The notes under the pieces are model-generated. The model saw nothing but the letters and a program-made list of their open reading frames with translations. It made no database searches and had not been told where the DNA came from. Source: Candidatus Nanopelagicales bacterium (GTDB lineage Bacteria; Actinomycetota; Actinomycetes; S36-B12; UBA5976). Taken from it: DNA of 49,184 bases. The DNA lies in contig JAURFT010000007.1 of the NCBI GenBank assembly GCA_030834185.1, forward strand, positions 1-49,184, written 5' to 3'. Shown piece after piece: positions 41,107 to 42,961 of this stretch. The position numbers and the translations under genes are program-made. Numbering within the stretch: position 1 is the first letter of the stretch; each line of letters starts with the position of its first letter.

Positions 41107-41904
41107 TTAAATTGAAACTTGAGCTGCGCTTTGCACAACTGGACCTAAAAATCGCTGTGCGAGTTCTTGAAACGCTTGGGCATCTTTAGTTGCGGCAAAT
41201 ATATGTGTTGGAGCAGCGCCGCCTGGTGGCCGAAGTAAGTTGTTTTCTAAAAGTGCATGATGCAGATCTTGCGCAGTTTCTTCAGCGCTAGATACCAGCG
41301 CCACTTCTGGGCCAACCACATATGAAATCACTGCTGTTAATAACGGATAGTGCGTGCAACCTAAAACTAAAGTATCTATTCCCTGTGCAACTAAATCATC
41401 TAAATATTCATGCGCGACGTTAAGCACCTGATCCCCAGTAGTTTCACCGCGCTCGACAAATTCAACAAATTGCGGGCAGGCTTTAGAAATTACCTCAATA
41501 CTTGGAGCGGCAGCAAATGCATCTGGGTATGCCCCTGATTTGATAGTGCCGCTAGTTCCAATTACCCCAACTTTGCCGCTGCGAGTTACTGCAACTGCTC
41601 TTCTAACTGCAGGGCGCACTACTTCAATTACTGGAATCTGATATCGCTCTCGGGCGTCATGGAGCACCGCAGCGCTAGCGGTGTTACAAGCAATCACAAT
41701 TGCCTTAACGCCAGCTGCAACTAAATGGTCCATCACCCCAAGCGCATATTCGCGCACATCAGCTAGCGGCTTGGGTCCATATGGGCCGTTTTTGGTATCC
41801 CCGATGTAATAGACAGACTCTTGGGGAAGCTGGTCAATGATGGATCTGGCCACAGTTAGGCCACCAACCCCTGAGTCCAGAATGCCTATCGGCGCGTCTA
41901 TCAC
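41107..41904 (-). CDS. murI: Glutamate racemase
   Basis: 265 residues from GTG 41904. Catalytic cysteines lie in I-A-C-N-T-A-S-A and L-G-C-T-H-Y-P-L-L, and the N-terminal [12 protein letters not shown] is typical. It makes D-glutamate for peptidoglycan. It is first in the operon murI-rph-rdgB, the order seen in mycobacteria (Rv1338, Rv1340, Rv1341). Confidence 0.96.
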
Positions 41905-41999
41905 GGCTTAAGCGTAGAGGGCAGCTGTGCCATTAATGGGGCGGCTGCTGGGGAAAGCTGGATTGCAATCAAAAATTCACCAAATAAAGTTATGCAAAA

Positions 42000-42098
42000 C
42001 TTGCCCAACTTAGGGCAGATGTGCAAGATTGACCTCGTGCCGTGGCCAAAGGGTCACGACTGGGTAGGCAGTTGCCTGCCCCTACCTGCTGGAGGCAG
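42000..42098 (+). promoter_or_regulatory. Highly structured 5' leader of actinorhodopsin, possible RBS-masking switch
   Basis: Three hairpins precede the start codon. Hairpin 1 is TTGCCC/GGGCAG (42001-42018). Hairpin 2 is CGTGGCC/GGTCACG-type, seven pairs with one wobble and loop AAAG (42041-42058). Hairpin 3 is nine pairs with a CC bulge, GGTAGGCAG with CTGCC..TACC (42063-42086). The CTGCC arm (42076-42080) can instead pair with GGCAG (42094-42098), which overlaps the ribosome binding site GGAGG (42091-42095). The two pairings exclude each other. A copy of CGTG at 42036 also competes for CACG in hairpin 2. The ligand, if any, is unknown. Confidence 0.5.
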
Positions 42099-42099
42099 A

Positions 42100-42906
42100 G
42101 TGGATTTTGCAACAATCAAAATCACCGGCGGACAGACATTCGGAATTTCTGAAGGTCAGTTCGACATAATTTATAACTCGTTGTCACTTGGTCTTGCATC
42201 AATGCTGGCAACAACTGTGTTCATGTTGGTGGCTCAGCCACGAGTATTGCCACAGTACCGCTTGGCACTAATTGCATCAGCAATGGTGACCTTCATCGCG
42301 GCTTATCACTACTGGCGCATCTTTGATTCATTCAAAGAAGCAGCAGCTGGTAACGAGGTATTCAACGAGGCTTACCGCTACGTTGACTGGCTACTAACTG
42401 TGCCACTGCTACTAGTTGAGGTTGTCGCTGTGCTTGCACTACCTGCAGCACGACGATCATCTTTGCTAACCAAGCTAATTCCAGCTTCAGCATTGATGAT
42501 CATCTTGGGTTACCCAGGTGAGATCACCTCTGAGCTAGGTCCAAAGGCAATCTGGGGCTTCTTGTCAACATTGCCATTTATCTACATCTTGTACGTACTG
42601 TTTGTGGAGCTAACCAAGTCACTAGAAGGTCAGCCACCAGCAGTAAAGGCAACCATTGGTCGACTACGACTGCTGCTAATTGGTACCTGGGGCGTATACC
42701 CAATCTCCTACATGTTCCCAATGATCGGCGATTGGACTGGCTCTGAGTTCTTCACTGGTGCAGACGGTTTCGTTGCGCGCCAGATTGGTTACACAATTGC
42801 AGATATCTTGGCTAAGTGCCTATTTGGTCTAACAATCTTCAAGATTGCTCGACTAAAGAGCATGGCAGATGATGCTTCATTCGCATCTGTTGAGTCAAAG
42901 CACTAA
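42100..42906 (+). CDS. Actinorhodopsin, light-driven proton pump (green type)
   Basis: 268 residues from GTG 42100, chosen because GGAGG lies four bases upstream; an ATG at 41992 lies in frame but would put the structured leader into the protein. Seven membrane helices are present. Helix C has Y-R-Y-V-D-W-L-L-T-V-P with proton acceptor D96, T100 and donor E107; H70 matches the histidine partner of the acceptor. The retinal lysine is K239 in I-A-D-I-L-A-K. Leu104 predicts green absorption. Gly153 in helix E may be the fenestration used by carotenoid antennae in related rhodopsins (inference). It sits between murI and clpS-DUF2017, genes that are close in other actinobacteria, and has its own leader and terminator. 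Confidence 0.95.
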   Translation: MDFATIKITGGQTFGISEGQFDIIYNSLSLGLASMLATTVFMLVAQPRVLPQYRLALIASAMVTFIAAYHYWRIFDSFKEAAAGNEVFNEAYRYVDWLLTVPLLLVEVVAVLALPAARRSSLLTKLIPASALMIILGYPGEITSELGPKAIWGFLSTLPFIYILYVLFVELTKSLEGQPPAVKATIGRLRLLLIGTWGVYPISYMFPMIGDWTGSEFFTGADGFVARQIGYTIADILAKCLFGLTIFKIARLKSMADDASFASVESKH

Positions 42907-42922
42907 TAGCTGTTAATTAAAA

Positions 42923-42961
42923 TTAGAGCCGTCCGGATCCGCGGGCGGCTCTAATTTTTTT
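42923..42961 (+). terminator. Rho-independent terminator after actinorhodopsin
   Basis: TTAGAGCCG...CGGCTCTAA forms a 12-pair stem (with the GTCC/GGGC region inside) around GGATCCGC, followed by seven T residues. The minus strand also reads into T-rich sequence, so it may also serve the convergent clpS-DUF2017 operon. Confidence 0.92.

Follow-up and report, generated by a model that had tools for sequence, protein, structure and literature searches.

A folded leader upstream of the actinorhodopsin gene in a Candidatus Nanopelagicales bacterium, and leaders of the same gene in related lineages

What does a strongly folded stretch directly upstream of an actinorhodopsin gene do? Members of acI outnumber all other bacteria in most freshwater lakes (PMC5301498), and in them actinorhodopsin is reported to rank in the top ten genes by expression, at more than 84 times the median (PMC5574706); these are acI data, and not data for the genus considered here. 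A conserved leader RNA at this gene, absent from the lists of known RNA families, gives a concrete way into the question of how much of this light-driven proton pump the cell makes. Such a stretch is found in the window, i.e., the whole 49,184 nucleotides of Candidatus Nanopelagicales DNA that were analysed. The initial annotation read it as three tight hairpins and a set of mutually exclusive pairings, together the layout of a possible translational switch. That a structured, evolutionarily kept leader precedes the gene is borne out by the analysis; the switch is not.

The gene, its locus and the predicted fold

The features discussed below are as follows.

42001 to 42029, forward strand: predicted promoter, TTGCCC (42001-42006), a 17-base spacer and CAAGAT (42024-42029)
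42041 to 42058, forward strand: hairpin H2, 42041-42046 paired with 42053-42058; six of six pairs kept in three of three species
42062 to 42081, forward strand: hairpin H3, an 8-bp helix of 42062-42069 with 42074-42081; pair probability 1.0
42086 to 42098, forward strand: hairpin P4, which holds the Shine-Dalgarno (SD) sequence; 42086-42089 paired with 42095-42098
42091 to 42095, forward strand: SD sequence GGAGG, assigned by sequence and kept in both congeners
42100 to 42906, forward strand: actinorhodopsin gene actR, 268 amino acids, GTG start; PF01036, E 4e-38
42919 to 42958, forward strand: intrinsic terminator 3' of actR, a 17-bp stem with a T-run, from a consensus scan

The start codon of actR is the GTG at 42100-42102. 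An in-frame extension upstream to an ATG at 41992 was rejected, as it meets stop codons in both congeners (loci L003 and L004); since the reading frame upstream is thus interrupted in these relatives, the region 5' of the GTG is a leader and is non-coding. Between 41107 and 43814, actR is flanked by murI and DUF2017-clpS, and lies on the opposite strand. The order murI-actR-DUF2017-clpS is common to the window's genus, the genus g6 and some acI loci (L044, L061), and the actR locus is therefore common to these lineages. A gene for a retinal-forming dioxygenase (blh/BCD) was not detectable in the three genomes of the window's genus, whose assemblies are 87-92% complete. In these genomes (G000, G001 and G002) actR is present and conserved, yet no blh was found, the assemblies being incomplete. 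The genus may import retinal, or may use the opsin without it.

The promoter-like TTGCCC-N17-CAAGAT recurs in one congener (L003/L005, one genome) and, in a weaker form, TTGCTC-N17-CAAAGG, in the other (L004); a consensus promoter scan did not report it. Transcription is predicted from these hexamers to start around 42035-42037. The first of the three hairpins originally described, 42002-42017, overlaps this motif. As its position falls between two hexamers that resemble a promoter and are repeated in the congeners, it probably belongs to the promoter and is not part of the mRNA.

The stretch 42000-42120 folds at -55 kcal/mol (z -4.3), which none of 200 dinucleotide shuffles equalled. For 42033-42120, the best fold comprises H2, H3 and P4 at -37.9 kcal/mol, and is predicted to dominate from 4 to 37 C. 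P4 can be extended in the window by pairing 42082-42085 with the start codon region at 42100-42103. Among 88 intergenic starts with an SD, taken from stretches of related genomes, about 99% have a higher folding energy than this leader from -75 to +12 relative to the start; once composition is corrected for, 4-5% of those genes are as extreme. Two other identities were rejected: a terminator within the leader (a scan flags P4, but the start codon and only four T come next) and a repeat or mobile element (the leader occurs once in the genome). An Rfam 15 search of 41500-42600 gave no match in the leader, the only hit being a chance snoRNA match elsewhere (E up to 5), and 18 related loci gave no leader match at E up to 3. 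The initial annotation, too, could match it to no riboswitch class.

Leaders within the genus and in other lineages

Searches with DNA and protein found the leader in only two other genomes of the genus, and the comparison of window-type leaders rests on three sequences. In each of the three genomes there is one copy, found only 5' of actR; the rhodopsin of L003/L005 is 93% identical to that of the window. The five best sub-threshold matches of R1, the model of the window leader, were checked (L182-L186), have no rhodopsin gene, and are taken as chance. Across the three species, H2 has undergone two double changes (U-A to C-G; G-U/G-C/A-U) with no broken pair. When the observed substitutions are placed at random, H2 stays intact with two double changes in 0.2-0.3% of trials (about 0.003); the number of double changes by itself is unremarkable, since 93 of 500 shuffles are as good. 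At the position of H3, L005 has the same helix and L004 a different hairpin of other sequence. P4, CUGCUGGAGGCAG, is identical in all three species, and the pair just outside it is U-A in L005 and A-U in L004, where the window has C and A. It is very probable that the folded leader is real and under selection.

The possibility that this is a GC-rich leader without a selected fold in the window's genus is nonetheless to be weighed. Such incidental structure would accord with a comparison of only three sequences, with the unexceptional double-change counts and with z-scores of -2.4 to -2.6 over -75 to +12, which 4-9% of other genes equal or surpass. It does not account for the two compensatory changes in an unbroken H2, or for the recurrence of a two-hairpin layout at actR elsewhere, and is considered distinctly unlikely.

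This recurrence is clearest in acI. The leaders of about 80 actinorhodopsin genes were read, and those of acI have a long first hairpin, often tipped with CCUCGAGG, then a second hairpin, the SD and the start codon. This layout is seen directly 5' of the rhodopsin start in L040, L059, L066, L073 and about 45 other acI loci. A model built from 13 acI leaders (R2) recovers, at the right place, further leaders absent from its building set. An R2-type leader is present in 35 of the 151 genomes around P. versatilis, once in each. The rhodopsin gene lies directly 3' of the leader at 38 of 38 loci (30 of 30 checked in the P. versatilis search and 8 of 8 in a class-wide search with model R3). Ten of the 26 acI pairs, all of them in the two hairpins, covary significantly when the null preserves both the tree and the substitutions; the script was the authors' own, modelled on R-scape, and the alignment was fitted to the model and so leans towards structure. 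In a structure-free alignment, both sides have changed in 13 of 26 pairs. Just 5' of the first stem is a -10-like motif, which would place that stem near the 5' end of the transcript. The acI leader is an unlisted structured RNA with covariation support that is not in Rfam.

A different two-hairpin leader is found in genus g4, which belongs to the window's own family. Ten of its 13 pairs have changed on both sides, and two of 13 are significant in the tree-aware test (nine distinct rows). The strand CAGUUCC, the 3' strand of the second hairpin (P3), can pair with either the 5' strand of P3 or the SD in every g4 sequence.

The leaders of the different lineages are not connected by covariance models. 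With default filters, R2 and R3 find nothing in the window, and with filters off they reach at best 5.0 bits; R1 does not match acI leaders. A single model for all lineages was rejected, as none of R1, R2 and R3 crosses from one to another. It follows that shape is kept, and not a shared sequence core. With two hairpins between the predicted promoter and the SD of actR at the same locus, the window has the acI layout. The window and acI leaders thus share only layout and locus; common descent is not claimed, because the models do not link the lineages.

Possible roles of the leader

The reading tentatively preferred here is that of a constitutive structural leader, which would stabilise the mRNA and determine how readily ribosomes reach it, in the manner of the 5' untranslated region of Escherichia coli ompA. 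In this scheme, about 65 bases, from about 42035 to 42099, would make up the untranslated leader at the 5' end of the actinorhodopsin message. The H2 and H3 stem-loops would begin almost at the predicted 5' end (a start at about 42035 is predicted, and H2 opens at 42041), and after them the ribosome-binding site would lie in a small hairpin. The 5'-terminal stem-loops would shield the front of an abundant message from RNA-decay enzymes and keep the distance to the SD constant, while the small SD hairpin would moderate initiation. The transcription start is a predicted one, and the role in stability or translation, like any effect of P4, is putative.

Several observations favour such a structural leader. 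Firstly, the shape is kept while the stems change freely, with no unpaired core shared across lineages. Secondly, the stems lie near the predicted 5' end, the leader serves one gene only, and there is no competitive alternative fold. Thirdly, the reported transcript level in acI is very high (PMC5574706). Against stabilisation, a conserved SD hairpin that pairs with the GTG would lower translation, and regulation fits this at least as well.

The main rival is translational control. Here a protein, a small RNA or some other signal acting in trans would open or close P4 (in g4, the pairing between the SD and the 3' strand of P3) and so regulate rhodopsin synthesis post-transcriptionally. This is possible, if somewhat unlikely. 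P4 is identical within the genus and its outer pair is flipped between the congeners. The local fold around the window's SD ranks within the top 0-3% of 119 starts for stability, and rhodopsin SDs are enclosed by pairs more often than those of other genes (p 6e-6, over non-independent sequences). The either/or pairing of CAGUUCC in every g4 sequence would also fit. On the other hand, P4 does not exceed shuffles in which the SD is fixed (p 0.27 and 0.20), shuffled upstream sequence pairs the fixed SD side equally well (43 representatives, Fisher p 0.88), and P4 has no tree-aware covariation. The g4 alternative pairing has a single double change (81 of 500 shuffles). As a general feature of rhodopsin leaders, SD sequestration is thus an unproven hypothesis, since it stands above other genes but not above shuffles. 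Control through CsrA was rejected: csrA is absent from all 43 family genomes (0 of 43), while the E. coli, B. subtilis and T. maritima controls were detected.

A broader form of translational control would treat the fast-evolving leader RNAs of freshwater actinobacterial actinorhodopsin genes as having one function, translation control by some signal, carried out by lineage-specific folds that occlude the SD. In the window and acI this fold would be a local hairpin, in g4 the P3-or-SD pairing and in g6 a long-range closing stem. This unifying proposal is regarded as unlikely.

A structured leader at a single gene and the lack of an Rfam match would be consistent with a bistable switch, with a light-responsive RNA, or with a riboswitch that binds retinal or some other small molecule. 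The elements proposed for a switch by the initial annotation are located correctly (CTGCC at 42076-42080, GGCAG at 42067-42071 and 42094-42098, CGTG at 42036 and 42041, CACG at 42055-42058, together with GGAGG at 42091-42095 and GTG at 42100-42102), but the pairings between them are not favoured. GGCAG with CTGCC is not the stem of H3, which is 42062-42069 with 42074-42081; forcing it costs 6.9 kcal/mol. Moving CTGCC onto the downstream GGCAG yields -29.4 against -37.9 kcal/mol (8.5 worse), with a probability of about 0 from 4 to 37 C, and forcing the CGTG at 42036 onto CACG, in place of its supposed competitor, gives -35.4 (2.5 kcal/mol worse). Nor are the motifs kept. In L005 the upstream GGCAG is replaced by GGCATTGGG, and in L004 it is absent; CTGCC has become TTACC or TACCC, and TGTG or CAAG stands in place of the first CGTG. 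Because these motifs have changed, the proposed pairs cannot form in the congeners. Two exclusive conserved pairings involving the SD, as expected of a translational riboswitch, are thus not found, the alternatives being unstable in the window and absent in its relatives.

There is, moreover, no unpaired core common to the lineages, and the leader was never found at another gene. Sensing of self-made retinal looks unlikely in the genus, and retinal feedback is disfavoured there, as blh was undetected in three of three genomes (87-92% complete). The initial annotation had tied its reading to covariation and to conservation of both GGCAG copies in relatives; the second was not found, while covariation was. 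Overall, a switch or riboswitch is very unlikely.

Equally improbable is an element acting at the DNA level, in which the inverted repeats would be operator sites just 3' of the promoter, and the RNA would fold only incidentally. The tips of the first acI hairpin are perfect palindromes, as an operator might be, but the stems covary, which is not required of an operator, and the loops of the second hairpin are variable. The loop of H2 in the window is CAAAGG/CAAAA. An RNA thermometer at the SD, suggested by a small hairpin containing the SD and GTG, can be largely dismissed, since folding predicts a P4 probability of 0.98-0.99 throughout 4-37 C.

Comparison with known leaders

The structural leader favoured above has precedents. 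The ompA stabiliser consists of a non-specific stem-loop and the ribosome-binding site (PMC7148126, PMC7509114). The window's leader resembles it in having non-specific stem-loops near the (here predicted) 5' end, then a strong SD, on an abundant membrane-protein message. It differs in that it belongs to another phylum and its SD may itself sit in a hairpin, and a stabilising role in the window would be by analogy. In Rhodobacter capsulatus, puf mRNA is protected by hairpins (PMC7509114), and there too hairpins are linked to how a light-energy gene is expressed; unlike the single-gene leader of the window, those of puf block endonuclease cleavage within an operon. With translational riboswitches that hide the SD, the window's leader has in common a folded structure and an SD in a hairpin, but it has no alternative fold and no unpaired core conserved across lineages, and it serves one gene only. 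The closest likeness is to the acI leader modelled by R2 and R3: the same gene, the same site in some acI genomes, two hairpins, the SD and the start codon, although R2 and R3 miss the window's leader and R1 misses those of acI.

A structured mRNA leader is a known kind of object; as a family, this one appears to be undescribed, with no Rfam family and no paper found in a search of mostly open-access literature. The window's leader extends the two-hairpin layout outside acI, and the covarying hairpins make the leader directly testable.

Some minor observations concern the other lineages. In g4, the either/or pairing lies at about 1440-1475 in L006-L010, L014, L018, L050 and L068, and L050 has changed all three strands together. 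This P3-or-SD arrangement is the switch layout sought by the initial annotation, with weak statistics (one double change, 81 of 500 shuffles). The only four g4 genomes with blh (G005, G030, G031 and G037) have non-standard rhodopsin leaders (L097; L095/L064; L100/L079; and L101, respectively), which kinship may explain. In acI, the palindromic tips of the first hairpin are lineage-specific, above a stem that covaries: CCTCGAGG in L040 (1408-1430), L059 and L066, CATATG in L051, L061, L044 and L074, and CCGAAATTCGG in L012 and L019. Such a tip is possibly a protein site, a kissing loop or a DNA operator.
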